Source: Gammaproteobacteria bacterium Milos-ODIII6 (GTDB lineage Bacteria; Pseudomonadota; Gammaproteobacteria; Chromatiales; Chromatiaceae). Taken from it: a stretch of DNA of 64,000 bases. The position numbers and the translations under genes are program-made. Positions within the stretch are counted from its first letter, which is position 1, and each line of letters opens with the position of its first letter. The stretch spans positions 310,001 to 374,000 of the forward strand of contig JAPTHR010000002.1 in NCBI GenBank assembly GCA_029228645.1, written 5' to 3'. The notes under the pieces are model-generated. The model was not told where the DNA came from and did no database searches. It was given only the letters and a program-made list of their open reading frames with translations. This document shows positions 55,301-64,000 of the stretch, piece after piece.

Positions 55301-55807
55301 TCAACGCCGTTGATAATGCGCCCGGTCGGGGATGACGTTCCGAATCCCGCCCCTGGGGTTTTCCACATCCCCCTGGTAGCGCGGCAAGACGATTACGTGC
55401 AGGTGATCGATGCTCCGCCCCGCCGCCCGGCCATCATTGTTGCCCACGGTATAGGCGTCGGGTTGCCTACCCAGAAAGGGAAGCGCCAGCACCATCTGGA
55501 TCTGGTCCATCGGCCGGTCACTGAGATCTTCCCTGGCCATCATGCGCGGATAGAGTTGCGCGAAGTCGGTGGTTTCGATCACCGCTTTGACGCCGGCCAG
55601 TGCATCGAAGTAATCGCCCTGCTCCTGGGCATTCAGGTCGAAAATGGATTCGACATGTCGCCTGGGAATAACCAGGGCGTGGCCGGGGTTCACCGGGTGG
55701 GTATCGAAGATGGCAACAAAGGATCTGTTCTCGAAAATGAAGGGATCAGCCTGGCCGCTGGATACCTTGCAGAAATAACAGGCCTGTTCAGAAGGGGTAC
55801 TGCTCAT
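55301..55807 (-). CDS. HIT-fold family protein with altered histidine triad
   Basis: A 168-residue nucleotide-hydrolase-fold protein with an N-terminal CYFC pair (ACYFCKVSSG), the AIFDTHPVNPGHALVIPRRH strand pair and a C-terminal NPRGGIRNVIPDR stretch typical of Ap4A-hydrolase-like HIT proteins. The triad region reads DHLHVIVLPRY: the first two histidines are present, while the third is isoleucine. The middle histidine, the usual nucleophile, is retained, so activity is possible. It is convergent with the SBF gene. Confidence 0.88.
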   Translation of the reverse strand: MSSTPSEQACYFCKVSSGQADPFIFENRSFVAIFDTHPVNPGHALVIPRRHVESIFDLNAQEQGDYFDALAGVKAVIETTDFAQLYPRMMAREDLSDRPMDQIQMVLALPFLGRQPDAYTVGNNDGRAAGRSIDHLHVIVLPRYQGDVENPRGGIRNVIPDRAHYQRR

Positions 55808-55969
55808 TGTCCTCGCTCTTTTCTCATCCAGGGATTGGGGTCGCCGCGAGAGCGGGGCGACCTGCGTATGACTGATTTTACCCGAGTCTCCATATCACTA
55901 CTTTCGAGCCTCTTTTTTGGGAAACGAAACCCCCGGGCTTAACCGGTGGGCTGTTCACGGGACGTCTGA

Positions 55970-56012
55970 AGAAGAAAAGCCGCCATCCCTGATCACCTGG
56001 AACGACGGCGGC
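55970..56012 (-). terminator. Rho-independent terminator of katG
   Basis: On the minus strand GCCGCCGTC pairs with GATGGCGGC (one mismatch region) around a loop of about 17 bases and is followed by TTTTCTTCTT. It lies 68 bases after the katG stop codon. Confidence 0.75.
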
Positions 56013-56079
56013 ATTTAGCTAATTGATGAGAGGAGCGTGCCCAGCGGGCAAGCAGGACGGCCGCCCGCTGGGATTCCTC

Positions 56080-58305
<2,226 letters not shown>

Positions 58306-58334
58306 TTAGCTGCCGGTAACCAATTTAGCCAATT

Positions 58335-58352
58335 GATTAATTGAAATTAATC
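58335..58352. promoter_or_regulatory. Palindrome upstream of katG, possible LysR/OxyR-type operator
   Basis: GATTAATT-GA-AATTAATC is a perfect 8-bp inverted repeat, flanked by ATAG on one side and CAATT on the other, in an AT-rich patch in front of katG. LysR-type regulators, including OxyR, bind such sites. The match to the OxyR four-box pattern is weak. Confidence 0.45.
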
Positions 58353-58469
58353 GATAGTTTTTACCGATCCCATTTCAATCCGGTTCCGATCCGCACCCGT
58401 CACGCGGCCGGGCAGAGGTTCACGGCGGTGGAAGCCTGTCGCCCGGTCCGGGAAACGCGCGGCCTGGGA

Positions 58470-58497
58470 ACCCCTCCGCCGCGGGCGATGGAGGGGT
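58470..58497 (-). terminator. Inverted repeat after the small conserved gene, possible terminator
   Basis: ACCCCTCC pairs with GGAGGGGT around a 12-base loop. It lies ~30 bases after the stop of the leftward gene at 58525. There is no U-tract, so it may instead slow transcription or protect mRNA. Confidence 0.4.
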
Positions 58498-58524
58498 GGT
58501 GGACCTGCCGCCTGTGTCCAGGCT

Positions 58525-58833
58525 CTACTCGAAGTGCGTCCTGGCGAGAAGCTCGTCTTTCTCCAGCGAAACGTCCGCCAGGGTGACCCCGTCCGATGCC
58601 ACCCCCACGACGACTCCCTTCCCCGCGACAGGAATCAGCTTGTCGATTTTGAATCGACCCGATGCACCCCGGATGAAGCATTCCTCGTCGAAAAACAGGC
58701 GGTCGCTGCCGTCGCCGATTTGATCCGACTCGATCGAGTCGTAGCCCACCAGCGCCGCAATCGCCTCGAGGTCACCCACCTCCGTCGCTTCGATGGTCTT
58801 GTCTTCGGGTGAAATCATAAAGGCCTTGGCCAT
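58525..58833 (-). CDS. Small conserved hypothetical protein
   Basis: A 102-residue acidic cytoplasmic protein. The opening AFMISPEDKTIEATEVGDLEA followed by a short beta-rich body resembles small proteins of the DUF3846 kind, but this is only a faint likeness. GGAGGG lies 5-6 bases before the ATG at 58833, which supports it as a real gene. No function is proposed. Confidence 0.65.
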   Translation of the reverse strand: MAKAFMISPEDKTIEATEVGDLEAIAALVGYDSIESDQIGDGSDRLFFDEECFIRGASGRFKIDKLIPVAGKGVVVGVASDGVTLADVSLEKDELLARTHFE

Positions 58834-59432
58834 ATATCCCTCCGGATCAATACTGGAAAAAAGGCGGACGCGACAGGCGCCACGCCGCGAATCGTCGGCT
58901 CGAGAGTCATCACAAGCTATCAGCGTTCACCCAGGCATCCCAGCCGAGCCATTCTTCTTCCCGAGGGACATCCGGATCACCGGCATGGCTTTCAAACCCA
59001 GGGAATGACTGGCAAGGCGGCAGGATGCTTTCTCTTCGGAACGGGCACAGGAATCGTGTCAACATGGGGATAAGCTCGAATATCTGAACGACCTTACACG
59101 ACCATAGACCCCGGCGGGAAACGGGTGAAGTTGAAAGTTTCAAAGGTCGCGATAGGCGTCCGCTATCCCGGGAATACCTCCGCAAAGCCAGGGGATGAAT
59201 CGTCGCGCTGGCAGCATCGCCCGCCCGGACTATTCGTCACCACGATAGCTCGTGACAGGCCGCCAGGCGCCCCGTTTCAAAGAACATTCCAGCCACCCGG
59301 AGAACAGGATTGCCTCGTCCCAGGTGGCAGTCGAGAATACCCGAGAGGAAGAGCGGAAGACGCCGGGATTCACACCCTTGGGGTTCCAGCACCATCAGCC
59401 AGCTAAAAAAACCAACCGCGGAACATGTCCGG
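58834..59432. other. Gene-free stretch of about 600 bases
   Basis: No gene could be supported on either strand. Open frames here are rich in Arg, Pro and Cys and lack ribosome sites. It must hold promoters for the divergent small gene and the GNAT-nitrilase fusion gene. Confidence 0.5.
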
Positions 59433-61019
59433 ATGAACAAAGCCACAGCCAGCAAGAAAGGCAAGAAGAAGAGCCCCCAGAAGAAACCGAAGCGCTTCCA
59501 GGAACTGCTGCTACGCAATACCCGCATCGACGATTACGACGATATCGCATCGATGATGAATCGCATCTATCCGGATTGGGACGGCGCCTGGTCGCTGGAA
59601 CAGTTCGAATCCCAGATCCGTCGCTTCCCGGAGGGTCAGGTCTGCATCGAGGACAACGGCAAGGTCATCGCGGCGTCGAACGCTTTGATCGTCAGCATGG
59701 AACGTTTCGGCGACCGGCATACCTACGAGGAGGTTACCGGCGAAGGCTTCTTCACAACCCATGACCCGAAGGGTGACACCCTGTACGGTGCGGACATCTT
59801 CGTTGACCCGGACTACCGCGGTCTGCGTCTCGGGCGGCGCCTGTACGATGCCCGCAAGACCTTGTGCGAGAATCTCAACCTGCGCCGGATCGTCGCCGGC
59901 GGACGCATCCCGGGGTACGCAAAGCACGCCGAGGCGATGTCCGCGGCGCAATACATCGAGCTGGTCAAGCGCAAGGAACTGCGCGACCCGGTGTTGTCAT
60001 TCCAACTCAGCAACGACTTTCATGTCCTCAAACTGATACCGCAGTACGAGCGCATGGACGAGGCATCCCGCTCCTTCGCCACCCTGATCGAGTGGATCAA
60101 TATCCACTACCAGGGGAAGGCGCCGCTGCTTCGCACACGCAGCAGCCGGGTGCGCGTCGGTGCGGCGCAGTGGAAGATGCGCCAGGCGCCGACGCTCGAT
60201 GTACTCAAGCAGCAAATCAAGTACTTCGTCGATGTGTTCGCCAGCTACAACGCCGACTTCGTGCTGTTCCCGGAGTTCTTCACCTTTCCGCTGATGGTGC
60301 AGTTCAACCAGGACAACCCGGCCAAGGCGATTCGCGATGTCTCGGTATTCACGGAACAGATCCGAGACGAAATGCTGGCACTGGCAGTCAGCTACAACAT
60401 CAACATCATCGCCGGCTCGATGCCGGTCTACAGCGAGCAGCGCCTGCATAACGCCAGCTACCTGCTTCGTCGTGACGGCAGCTGGGACGCGCAGTACAAA
60501 TTGCATGTCACGCCGGACGAGACCGCCTATTGGGGAATGCAGGGCGGCGACAGACTGCAGGTGTTCGACACCGATGTCGGACGGATCGGCATTCTGATCT
60601 GCTATGACGTCGAGTTCCCCGAGCTACCACGCATTTTGGCCGAGCAAAATATGCAGCTGCTTTTCGTGCCCTACTGGACCGACACCAAGAACGGGTATGA
60701 GCGGGTGCGCCGCTGCGCCCAGGCGCGCGCGATCGAAAACGAGTGTTACGTGGTCATCACGGGCAGCGTTGGCAACCTGCCGAACGTCGAGAACATGGAC
60801 ATCCAATACTCGCAATCGGCCGTGTTCACCCCATCGGATTACGCCTTTCCGCACGATGCCATCGCCGCGGAGGCGACGCCGAATACCGAGATGGCGCTGA
60901 TCGCGGACCTCGACCTCGACAAACTCGACGACCTGCGGCGCAGTGGATCGGTTCGGAACCTCCAGGACCGCCGCCTCGACCTGTATCAGTTGAACTGGAA
61001 AAGCAACAACAAGGACTGA
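59433..61019 (+). CDS. Bifunctional GNAT acetyltransferase / nitrilase-family carbon-nitrogen hydrolase
   Basis: A 528-residue fusion known from other bacteria. After a Lys-rich tail (residues 1-22), a GNAT domain covers ~25-215 (acetyl-CoA loop in DPDYRGLRLGRRLYDA). A nitrilase-superfamily domain covers ~245-520 with catalytic Glu in LFPEFF, Lys in YKLHVTPDE and Cys in ILICYDVEFPE. Substrates are unknown. The ATG at 59433 was chosen as the first in front of the domain; an open extension to 59310 is not family-like. Confidence 0.88.
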   Translation: MNKATASKKGKKKSPQKKPKRFQELLLRNTRIDDYDDIASMMNRIYPDWDGAWSLEQFESQIRRFPEGQVCIEDNGKVIAASNALIVSMERFGDRHTYEEVTGEGFFTTHDPKGDTLYGADIFVDPDYRGLRLGRRLYDARKTLCENLNLRRIVAGGRIPGYAKHAEAMSAAQYIELVKRKELRDPVLSFQLSNDFHVLKLIPQYERMDEASRSFATLIEWINIHYQGKAPLLRTRSSRVRVGAAQWKMRQAPTLDVLKQQIKYFVDVFASYNADFVLFPEFFTFPLMVQFNQDNPAKAIRDVSVFTEQIRDEMLALAVSYNINIIAGSMPVYSEQRLHNASYLLRRDGSWDAQYKLHVTPDETAYWGMQGGDRLQVFDTDVGRIGILICYDVEFPELPRILAEQNMQLLFVPYWTDTKNGYERVRRCAQARAIENECYVVITGSVGNLPNVENMDIQYSQSAVFTPSDYAFPHDAIAAEATPNTEMALIADLDLDKLDDLRRSGSVRNLQDRRLDLYQLNWKSNNKD

Positions 61020-61033
61020 AAGCTGGCGGAACC

Positions 61034-62056
61034 TTACCGCAGCCGCCAGGCCAGCTCCTCGTTTGCCTTCAGCGGGGTGACACCGCCGGCATGATCCGGC
61101 GGCACCGTATGGCTTTCCTTCACCAGGGTGAGGGTTTCAGCATTGCGCGGCAGACGGTAGAAATCCGGACCGAAATGACTGGCGAAATCCTCCAGCTTGT
61201 CCAGGGCGCCTGCCGCCTCGAAGACCTCGGCGTACAACTCGATCGCGGCATGCGCCGTGTAGATCCCGGCGCAACCGCAAGACGTCTCCTTGGCATGCGT
61301 GGCATGCGGGGCGCTGTCAGTGCCCAGGAAGAACTTGGGATTGCCGCTGATGGCCGCACCAAGCAGGGCCTCGCGATGCGTCTCCCGCTTGAGCACCGGC
61401 AGGCAGTAGTAATGGGGCCGGATACCACCCTGGAACATGGCGTTGCGGTTGTACAGCAGGTGGTGCGCGGTGATGGTGGCCGCGACGTTGGCTGGCGCAG
61501 CCGCCACGAACTCAGCGGCCTGGCGGGTGGTGATGTGCTCCAGCACCACCCTCAGCTCCGGCTGCCGCTGCAGCAGCGGCGTCAGGATGCGCTCTATGAA
61601 AACCGCCTCGCGATCAAAAACGTCGACTTCCGGGTCGGTTACCTCGCCGTGCAGCAAGAGCGGCATGCCCGCTTCCTGCATGGCCTCCAGCGCATCCGCC
61701 ACCCGACCGATGTCGGTCACACCGGAATCCGAATTGGTGGTCGCTCCGGCGGGGTAGTACTTCACCGCGTGCACGAAGCCGCTGTCTTTCGCCTTTAAAA
61801 TCTCTGCCGGCGATGTGTTGTCCGTCAGGTACAGGGTCATCAGCGGTTCAAAGTCCATCCCGGCGGGCAAGGCCGCCAGGACACGTTCCCGATAAGCGGC
61901 GGCTTCCGCGACGGTCCGAACCGGTGGCTTGAGGTTGGGCATCACGATGGCTCGCGCAAAGCGCCGCGCCGTGTCCGGCAATACTGCGGCGAGCATGTCG
62001 TCATCGCGCAGGTGGACGTGCCAGTCGTCTGGCCGGGTGATAGTCAACGTGTGCAT
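61034..62056 (-). CDS. pyrC: Dihydroorotase (class II)
   Basis: A 340-residue zinc enzyme of pyrimidine synthesis that closes carbamoyl-aspartate to dihydroorotate. The metal-binding residues are [10 protein letters not shown] (HxH), the carboxylated Lys in HAVKYYPAG, the His in LLLHGEV and in LEHITT, and the catalytic Asp in FLGTDSAPH. The ATG at 62056 begins the conserved part; the longer open frame to 62329 lacks family sequence. Convergent with the GNAT-nitrilase gene. Confidence 0.94.
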
Positions 62057-62381
62057 ATCTCGGTCTCTTGCTCCAGCTTGAACTCGGTGAGCATCGGAAG
62101 CACAGACAGCATGCCCCCACACCGCAGAATACCTCAATCCGGCGATCGAACGACGCCAGCCATAACGACTGACATCTTGGTTCGCGGGAGCTGAGGCGCA
62201 GCGCGCATCGCCAGGCGCATGCTGAGAGAAGCCACTCTCTGTTGCCTGATAAACAGGACTAGCCCGGCCGTTTATCCTTATCTTCCCTGTTTTCTTTATG
62301 CTTGATGCTGTTCGGCAGACTCCTACCATCAGCAGTCACAGGAAACAATCTCGGTCGCATTGGCAGAGGGGATGAAATGGC
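62057..62381. other. Intergenic region between pyrC and the TAXI fusion gene
   Basis: About 325 bases between divergent starts. No gene or clear operator was seen; the right end (62260-62320) is AT-rich and may hold the rightward promoter. Confidence 0.5.
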
Positions 62382-64000
62382 ATGAAGAGCGTACTCGGAT
62401 TGATTGGGTCCTTGCTGCTGGCAACGGCCTCCGCGACGCTGGCGAGCGAGGCAACACGGATCAGCTGGGCAACCGCAACCAAGGGTGGCGGCTTCCAGCT
62501 GTTTGGCGAACACCTCGCCGAGGTGATCAATGCCGCGGACCGCCGCATCCGGGTCGAAACGCGCGTCAGCGGAGGCAGCCAGGAGAACATCAGGCTCCTG
62601 CAAGCCGGCGAGGTGGACGTCGGCCAGGTGGAAGGCAACGCCGCGCGGATTGCACTGGCGGGCATCCAGCAACCGGCCCCGAATCTCAAGGTACTCTCAG
62701 TGATGTACCCGAACCCCGGGATGTTCGTTGTGCGCGCTGATTCCAGCTACCAACGCATTGAAGACCTCAAGGGACAGCCAGTCGCCTTGGGCACCGAGGC
62801 ATCCGGACTACGGATACTCGCAAACGACGTCCTCGGTGGCCTGGGCCTGTCGCCGGACGAGGATTTCCAGCCGATCATTCTGGTCAATGCCGCGCAAGGT
62901 CCGAAGCTGGTCGACGAGCGCAAAGCCGAAGCACTGTGGGGGGCCGGCATCGGCTGGCCGGGTTTCGAAGCCGTGGCGGACGGATCGGCCGGCGCCCGCT
63001 TCATTGCACCGTTGCCGGAGCAGATACAGCAGATCATCGAGGCGAAACCGTATTTACAGGAAATGACGGTTCCCGCCGGCACCTACAAGGGCCAGGACGC
63101 AGATATTCATTCGCTTGGGCTGTGGTCTCTGATTCTGGCCAGGCCCGAGCTCGGCGATGAAACGGCCTATCGGCTCGCGCGTGCGATTCATCTCGGGCAC
63201 AAAGAGCTGCTCAGGCGCCTGCCGCAAGGCCGCTATACACAGGTGGCCAATACCGTGAAATACGTGCCGGCGACACAGCTACACCCCGGCGCCGCCAGGT
63301 ACTACCAGGAAATCGGCTTGCTGCCCGCCGTCGATAAACTCGTGAAGGTCACCCCGGTTGGCAGCCATGACGGCGATTTCTGCCGCTATGACCGCGCCCT
63401 GGTCTTCGAGGATCCCGATGGCACGCGCCTATTGTACGACGCCGGGCGAACCGTCGCAGGCCCGGACGACCCCCGGCTCGGCTCTATCGACGTGGTGCTG
63501 GTGAGCCATATGCATGGCGATCACGTCGGTGACCGCCATATTCCGGAGGTGAACGCTGGCGAGTGTGGCGCACCGGAATTCTCGGTTGGGGCGCTGCCCA
63601 ATACCAACAGCGTCAATATCGCCCTGGCCAAAGGCGCCACGATCCTCACCGGCAGCGAAATGCCGAAGTTTTTTGCCGCCAAGCTGGAGGCACTGGGCGG
63701 AAGCCCTTCGCAGTCGCAATTAGTGCGGTTTGGCGCCTCGAGAAAAATCAATGGCGTGACGCTGACGACCGTGCCCGCGGCACATTCCAACGGAATCGCC
63801 GGGGCCATGATTGGCAGCAAACTGGGCGCCCTGCTGGATGCCGCGGGGCTGACCGCCTACGCCGGGCCGCCAACCGGCTACGTCGTGATTTTCTCGAATG
63901 GACTGAAGGTCTATCTTTCCGGAGACACGGGGATCACTGCAGAACAGGGAACCGCCGTCCGGGATCACTATGGCGTGCATCTGGCGGTCATGAACATCGG
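62382..64000 (+). CDS. TAXI-type solute-binding protein fused to a metallo-beta-lactamase-fold hydrolase (partial, runs off window)
   Basis: An uninterrupted frame of at least 539 codons. Residues 1-21 form a signal peptide (KSVLGLIGSLLLATASATLA). Residues ~25-315 match TAXI-family periplasmic binding proteins (ATATKGGGFQLFGEHLAEV, SGGSQENIRLLQAGEVDVG, GQPVALGTEASG, VPATQLHPGAARYYQEIG). From ~325 a metallo-beta-lactamase-fold domain begins (VTPVGSHDGDFCRYDRALVF) with the metal motif SHMHGDHVGD, a later His in PAAHSNG and YLSGDTGIT. Related hydrolases are usually separate proteins with their own signal peptides; none is present at the join. GAGGGG lies ~10 bases before the ATG at 62382. The hydrolase end is outside the window. 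Confidence 0.85.
   Translation, partial: MKSVLGLIGSLLLATASATLASEATRISWATATKGGGFQLFGEHLAEVINAADRRIRVETRVSGGSQENIRLLQAGEVDVGQVEGNAARIALAGIQQPAPNLKVLSVMYPNPGMFVVRADSSYQRIEDLKGQPVALGTEASGLRILANDVLGGLGLSPDEDFQPIILVNAAQGPKLVDERKAEALWGAGIGWPGFEAVADGSAGARFIAPLPEQIQQIIEAKPYLQEMTVPAGTYKGQDADIHSLGLWSLILARPELGDETAYRLARAIHLGHKELLRRLPQGRYTQVANTVKYVPATQLHPGAARYYQEIGLLPAVDKLVKVTPVGSHDGDFCRYDRALVFEDPDGTRLLYDAGRTVAGPDDPRLGSIDVVLVSHMHGDHVGDRHIPEVNAGECGAPEFSVGALPNTNSVNIALAKGATILTGSEMPKFFAAKLEALGGSPSQSQLVRFGASRKINGVTLTTVPAAHSNGIAGAMIGSKLGALLDAAGLTAYAGPPTGYVVIFSNGLKVYLSGDTGITAEQGTAVRDHYGVHLAVMNI

Follow-up and report, generated by a model that had tools for sequence, protein, structure and literature searches.

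In-frame fusion of a TAXI-type solute-binding domain to a metallo-beta-lactamase-fold domain in a predicted periplasmic protein

The binding proteins of secondary transporters are presumed to work for partners in the membrane. That a TAXI-type solute-binding protein can be fused to a non-TRAP partner is already known: the available text of PMC12344293 describes TAXI-GltS systems (BP0403; fusions in Lachnospiraceae) in which, in a few genomes, a TRAP-free TAXI protein and a non-TRAP protein share one continuous frame, and it acknowledges 'orphan' TRAP binding proteins as a loose end. There is precedent as well for envelope hydrolases that carry a regulatory ligand-binding domain; in MltF, according to the available part of PMC10746161, muropeptides fill the N-terminal domain and the catalytic site opens. 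Here we describe a gene in which a TAXI domain is joined to a hydrolase domain of the metallo-beta-lactamase (MBL) fold. We found no published report of a TAXI-hydrolase fusion of this kind in a literature search that covered titles and the beginnings of abstracts and took in few subscription journals.

The gene lies at the end of a window of 64,000 nucleotides, the whole stretch of DNA that was analysed, in which a 539-codon frame starting with ATG at position 62382 remains open to the last base. The parent contig (C12) completes it. The full gene encodes 617 amino acids and occupies C12:372382-374235 including the stop codon (L004:2383-4236 in the fetched locus), the stop being reached 235 bases past the window. 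The in-frame fusion that the original prediction had read from the incomplete frame is therefore a complete gene with two full domains, whose coordinates are given in Table 1. The TAXI half matched the Pfam family PF16868 over residues 30-312 (E 5.3e-47; 161.2 bits, cut-off 27) and the NCBIfam model TIGR02122 over residues 1-312 (model positions 1-320 of 320, E 1.6e-67; 227.6 bits, cut-off 84.35), and the MBL half matched PF13483 (residues 340-567, E 2e-8) and PF12706 (residues 348-567). The proposed export signal was recovered as a Sec-like N-terminus by a crude hydrophobicity rule, and this signal peptide is weakly constrained among the fusions described below. The same rule, which passes the gene's own N-terminus, found no signal-peptide-like stretch at the junction, in agreement with the original prediction. 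From this arrangement we infer that the product is one exported two-domain protein located in the periplasm.

Table 1. Features of the fused gene (positions are those of the window unless the contig is named)
Feature	Position	Strand	Residues and basis
Sec-type signal peptide	62382..62444	+	residues 1-21; predicted cleavage ATLA/SEA; crude hydrophobicity rule positive
TAXI-type solute-binding domain	62445..63320	+	residues 22-313; PF16868, TIGR02122, structures 1us4 and 8s4j
Fusion linker	63321..63341	+	about residues 314-320; ends of standalone relatives
MBL-fold hydrolase domain	63342..64000, on to C12:374235	+	residues 321-617; PF12706, E 4.8e-11
HxHxDH metal-binding motif	63507..63524	+	residues 376-381; invariant in 31/31 aligned
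His468, metal ligand position (motif 3)	63783..63785	+	invariant in 31/31; role by homology
Asp515, metal ligand position (motif 4)	63924..63926	+	invariant in 31/31; role by homology

The position of the join could be deduced from relatives in which the two parts stand alone. The C-termini of eight of nine standalone TAXI proteins lie no more than about 10 residues from the point where the fused TAXI domain ends, the ninth (L122) running on for 28 residues, and 87 of the 90 MBL rows align from residue 321 on, the other three being fragments; since these ends and starts flank the stretch of about residues 314-320, the join was placed there. A Sec-like N-terminus was recognized by the crude rule in 81 of 83 standalone MBLs, and the remaining two (L051 and L066, both from Nisaea) have the hydrophobic stretch and no Met at the tested place. 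It follows from the comparison of standalone ends and starts that two elements are missing from the fusion, the stop codon of TAXI and the signal peptide of the MBL, and that a linker of about seven residues joins the two parts.

The same two-domain order was found in two other genomes. Full-length fusions with no internal stop are present in G210 (L117; contig L037), with 77% identity to our protein, and in G214 (L118; contig L038), with 73% identity, so that neither a stop or frame error nor a set of homologues with always separate parts accounts for the gene. The three fusions belong to one family and two genera. In each of the three, purifying selection acts on both halves. A simple Nei-Gojobori count of the three pairs, which are separated by a dS of about 0.9-1.4, gave dN/dS values of 0.13-0.26 (TAXI half) and 0.10-0.13 (MBL half). 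Of the four stretches that were compared between the fusions, the linker differed most at nonsynonymous sites, a value that comes from seven codons only. Because the junction is shared by three genomes, the frames are open and both halves are constrained, a frame error or other artefact is ruled out; a sequencing or assembly fault at the junction of our own contig is refuted by the other two fusions, and we give it practically no chance.

Among proteins of known structure, the TAXI half is closest to TtGluBP (1US4/1US5) and VcGluP (8S4J), with 1US4 and 8S4J as the nearest entries, and the match to these extends over the whole TAXI domain (TIGR02122, PF16868). It belongs to a clade that is set well apart: in the family and class loci its relatives were 56-72% identical and the next TAXI proteins at most 29%, and intermediates with 38-50% identity appeared in the phylum sample. 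Long runs of residues are invariant in the 12 TAXI sequences aligned (three fused, nine standalone), among them TATxGGGFxLFG, VEGNAA, VMYPNPGMFVV and ALWGAGIGWPGF. The domain probably binds a ligand and, because such long stretches are invariant, this is probably a single defined ligand throughout the clade. In the fusion, S66 retains the serine that VcGluP has in its pocket (S75), and residues of the VcGluP glutamate site are replaced in the clade (Y45 by F38, Q93 by E84, E125 by N111 and D157 by L143; VcGluP site as given in the available text of PMC11574862). F38 and E84 were invariant in all 12 sequences, and the key residues Y45 and Q93 of VcGluP are thus absent. As a change to alanine sharply weakens the affinity of VcGluP, 213-fold at Y45 and 990-fold at Q93 according to the same text (PMC11574862), glutamate is no safe guess. 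With these key residues replaced, glutamate was set aside as the default ligand. The equivalents of VcGluP Y200 and M201 are ambiguous, the gap in this region having been placed differently in two alignments.

In the MBL half, all seven metal-ligand positions (H376, H378, D380, H381, H468, D515 and H567, the last of them past the window end) were each invariant in the 31 aligned sequences, three fused and 28 standalone, and so were four cysteines. The motif H-x-HGDH occurs in 86 of 86 full-length MBLs, the three fused ones included. The claim of an intact HxHxDH motif was therefore borne out, and later His, Asp and His ligand positions accompany it. Given the ligand positions, the cysteines and the signal peptides, the family would consist of secreted, probably disulfide-bearing, metal-dependent hydrolases, and we infer from the same residues that the fused MBL half is catalytic. 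Its closest solved relatives are the UPF0173 hydrolases TM1162 (3x2z), 7e3v and Igni18 (6hrg), with E values from 9e-12 to 7e-10; two weaker solved relatives followed at 6e-5 and 6e-4. The NCBIfam model NF001911 (metal-dependent hydrolase), which we take to be the UPF0173 model, has a cut-off of 144; the whole protein scored 69.2 with it and the MBL half 72.8. As this lies under the equivalog cut-off, we regard the MBL half as a remote relative of UPF0173 and not as a member.

That the two parts are normally separate genes, as the original prediction had stated, holds for most relatives, the fusions being exceptions. The loci among the best 80 of 226 relatives comprised two fusions, one locus with both parts separate in one cluster, one with TAXI only and 76 with MBL only, MBL only meaning that no TAXI gene of the clade lay within the fetched stretch. 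At the level of the order, 12 of 210 genomes matched: three with the fusion (our own included), four with TAXI only, five with MBL only and none with both genes apart. The class sample yielded 17 matching genomes out of 369 (our own fused, three with both apart, two TAXI only, 11 MBL only), and the phylum sample 21 out of 398 (our own fused, eight MBL only, 12 TAXI only, none with both apart). These counts were made at thresholds of E 1e-40 for the order and class and E 1e-50 for the phylum, with remote relatives outside them, and the samples partly overlap; G066 in the order and G560 in the class were scored as MBL only on fragments whose frames are interrupted by a stop. Secreted MBLs of this family are common in alpha- and gammaproteobacteria, and since most of them occur without TAXI, the MBL can be considered independent of the TAXI domain. 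When our own genome was left out of the class sample, the MBL was present in three of five genomes with TAXI and in 11 of 363 others; the Fisher p of 0.0004 for this co-occurrence ignores relatedness, and the pattern is absent from the order and phylum samples. None of 318 matching plasmid records had one place covering 80% of the query.

In a tree of 86 of the 90 MBL rows (partial L143, L125 and two of L140 left out), the three fused MBL halves formed one clade (100/91). The TAXI tree contained 34 of 37 rows (partial L132, L033 and L027 left out); here the three fused halves and the TAXI-only proteins of G209 and G207 (L122 and L124, respectively) formed one clade (100/100) with an unsettled inner order. 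Because these two TAXI-only proteins fall within the clade of the fused ones, the pairing of TAXI with MBL is not obligatory. The trees fit a fusion that arose once, some lines having since lost the MBL; the alternative is more than one event. The G209 protein may itself be a former fusion that lost its MBL, since it ends in GLLPA, with which the fusion linker begins; tblastn detected no MBL remnant at the G209 locus. The surroundings of this TAXI-only gene (L112/L122) resemble positions 55301-62330 of the window: a HIT-family gene (81%) lies directly behind TAXI, and a presumably pyrC-like gene (82%) lies about 3.6 kb from the TAXI gene.

Genes of this TAXI clade do not have TRAP permeases as neighbours, and this applies to the unfused members as well. 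Using tblastn, we detected a TRAP permease at none of 17 clade loci (12 genomes, three of them with the fusion) and none of eight loci of intermediates, which stand outside the tree, compared with 22 of 26 control TAXI loci, or 21 of 25 without the query's own locus; many of these controls belong to the same family, in which a permease is more easily detected. The effective queries were L145 and L146, the third (L144) being an antisense frame; L146 is the neighbour of control L005, and control L006 is an odd membrane-type protein. A survey for DctM, done later as the better test, agreed with this result: in none of 19 other genomes (11 with clade members, eight with intermediates) did the contig show a DctM match less than 40 kb from the TAXI gene, the nearest being 40 kb off in G773. 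All 20 genomes checked, our own among them, have DctM elsewhere, and conventional TAXI genes in the same data do adjoin permeases, for example in G030 at 3.50 Mb. The TRAP membrane subunits for which the sequence beyond the window had been proposed as a place to look were not encoded on C12; the four DctM matches of the genome were confined to contigs C6, C7 and C21, the one on C6 being of the fused type and adjoining another TAXI gene. The GltS family (PF03616) had no match in our own genome. Since some contigs are short (the loci of G497 and G016 measure 2.8 and 3.4 kb), a neighbour may in such cases lie off the contig.

Other TAXI-type proteins came to our attention during this survey. In several genomes of 6-8 Mb from the phylum sample (L167-L171 and L174), TAXI proteins about 50% identical to the clade are encoded near other binding-protein genes, identified by Pfam at L167 as TctC, Peripla_BP_6 and PBP_like_2; similar genes were seen by BLAST to cluster near the others. 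The odd protein of control L006 (G000:C20:283304-283984; L006:6816-8090, minus strand) has 424 amino acids, with PF16868 at 36-261 and hydrophobic stretches both at the N-terminus and behind the TAXI-like domain. Frames like it recur in relatives, mostly with 407-482 amino acids and similar matches.

The only side-by-side pair of TAXI and MBL genes among the fetched loci was found in G254 (L056), where the order is TAXI, a cupin gene (PF07883), MBL, a small gene without a Pfam family, an efflux adaptor (PF13437) and a pump. An RND efflux pair is also present downstream of the fusion (pump PF00873 at our locus; both adaptors PF13437), and we gave it little weight, as the adaptors of the two loci are 36% and the pumps 46% identical. 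Clustering of the neighbours within 6 kb gave no hint of a substrate, with no family present in more than nine loci. A different pairing of TAXI with a hydrolase was seen in G386, where an M28 peptidase gene begins about 10 bp after a TAXI gene of the clade (L178:6429-8432), and in seven loci a gene that by eye resembles a PAS-type sensor (L042:11221-12891 and its cluster) lies at most 6 kb from the MBL gene.

A peroxidase gene (PF00141), which we take to be katG, is located at 56080-58254 of the window, 4.1 kb upstream of the fusion. Peroxidase genes were also observed near the MBL in eight Marinobacter loci (L095, L097-L100 and L114-L116) and in G731; in G766 one follows the MBL at a distance of about 280 bp, and a broken remnant is situated directly behind TAXI in G016. 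The places with a peroxidase neighbour include L184:7902-10112, L185:3618-5759 and L009; in the clustering of neighbours described above, the peroxidase genes were those of the eight Marinobacter loci and L009. These neighbours could hint at an oxidative-stress setting.

Since no permease gene stands beside the members examined and the fusion carries an enzyme of its own, the most economical functional interpretation would be that the binding domain works for the hydrolase. The TAXI clamp would bind a small ligand, be it the substrate, the product or a reaction-linked signal, and the domain would hold this ligand for the attached hydrolase or gate the hydrolase by closing; the model is MltF, a periplasmic hydrolase whose active site opens once ligand fills the N-terminal regulatory domain. 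By this analogy we tentatively favour an exported TAXI-MBL protein whose TAXI domain captures a ligand for, or gates, its hydrolase, at a little under even chances. A coupling of capture and hydrolysis is suggested by analogy, and the conservation of both halves would be compatible with their working uncoupled. Since the fusion recurs and its two halves have the look of working domains, an enzyme may by now have replaced a transporter as the partner of the binding half. That the TAXI clade left transport and became an enzyme partner, capturing or sensing a molecule and feeding or gating the attached hydrolase, seems to us doubtful. The main competing explanation is that two neighbouring periplasmic proteins were brought onto one chain by a deletion, which took out the stop of the TAXI gene together with the signal peptide of the MBL, and that each keeps its own job, uncoupled from the other. 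It would account for a short and variable linker, for TAXI and MBL being neighbours in G254 with only the cupin between them, for the TAXI-only proteins L122 and L124 within the fused-TAXI clade and for each half being common without the other; but the fusion has been kept over dS of about 0.9-1.4 in two genera, and the co-occurrence in the class sample is above chance when relatedness is ignored. We consider this explanation rather unlikely, and still one to be reckoned with.

It is also conceivable that the MBL processes a compound and that TAXI passes the product to a transporter encoded elsewhere, be it the TRAP system on C6 or one of another type. Service to a transporter is the normal role of TAXI proteins, systems as well as fusions of TAXI with GltS have been published (described in the available text of PMC12344293), and DctM exists somewhere in every genome checked, in our own next to another TAXI gene on C6. 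The C6 permease, however, has in that gene its own binding protein, DctM was found within 40 kb on the contig in 0 of 19 genomes and not on C12, and our genome is without a GltS match, so that we find this arrangement improbable. Finally, the TAXI ligand might be chemically unrelated to the MBL reaction and merely switch the enzyme on or off. The N-terminal domain of MltF does respond to muropeptides and activate the catalytic domain (available part of PMC10746161), but its ligand is a cell-wall product and hence linked to the reaction, and we see very little likelihood in a switch of the unrelated kind. If capture or gating by the TAXI domain is true, the protein would be a ligand-gated periplasmic enzyme made from a transporter part. 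A TAXI clade that is encoded away from TRAP permeases and has a secreted hydrolase as its fusion partner or gene neighbour gives these binding proteins a testable non-transport role, and its ligand would point to the chemistry of the conserved secreted MBL family, for which our literature search found no assigned function.

Compared with known systems, the MBL half has the GDTG motif in common with UPF0173; it differs in that it aligns over part of the domain only and in that its family is exported and has four invariant cysteines. Igni18 (6HRG) has five His and two Asp metal ligands, as does the MBL half, and is promiscuous, with lactonase, lipase, phosphodiesterase, beta-lactamase and further activities (available text of PMC7846560). 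The acesulfame sulfatase, an MBL with a binding protein nearby, was compared by its description (available text of PMC10413263) and dropped as a parallel, because its partner belongs to an ABC system. In TAXI-GltS, the partner of the TAXI protein is a membrane symporter, whereas in TAXI-MBL it is a soluble hydrolase (TAXI-GltS as described in PMC12344293, available text). TAXI-TRAP proteins typically have a permease gene nearby, whereas the fusion has none and is joined to an enzyme. The N-terminal domain of MltF is of the ABC binding-protein type, a family of binding proteins other than TAXI; its catalytic domain is unrelated to the MBL half, and we do not claim homology between MltF and the fusion. 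MltF is nevertheless the closest mechanistic parallel to the TAXI-MBL protein, being located in the envelope and having a regulatory domain that binds ligand at its N-terminus and a hydrolytic one at its C-terminus (available part of PMC10746161).
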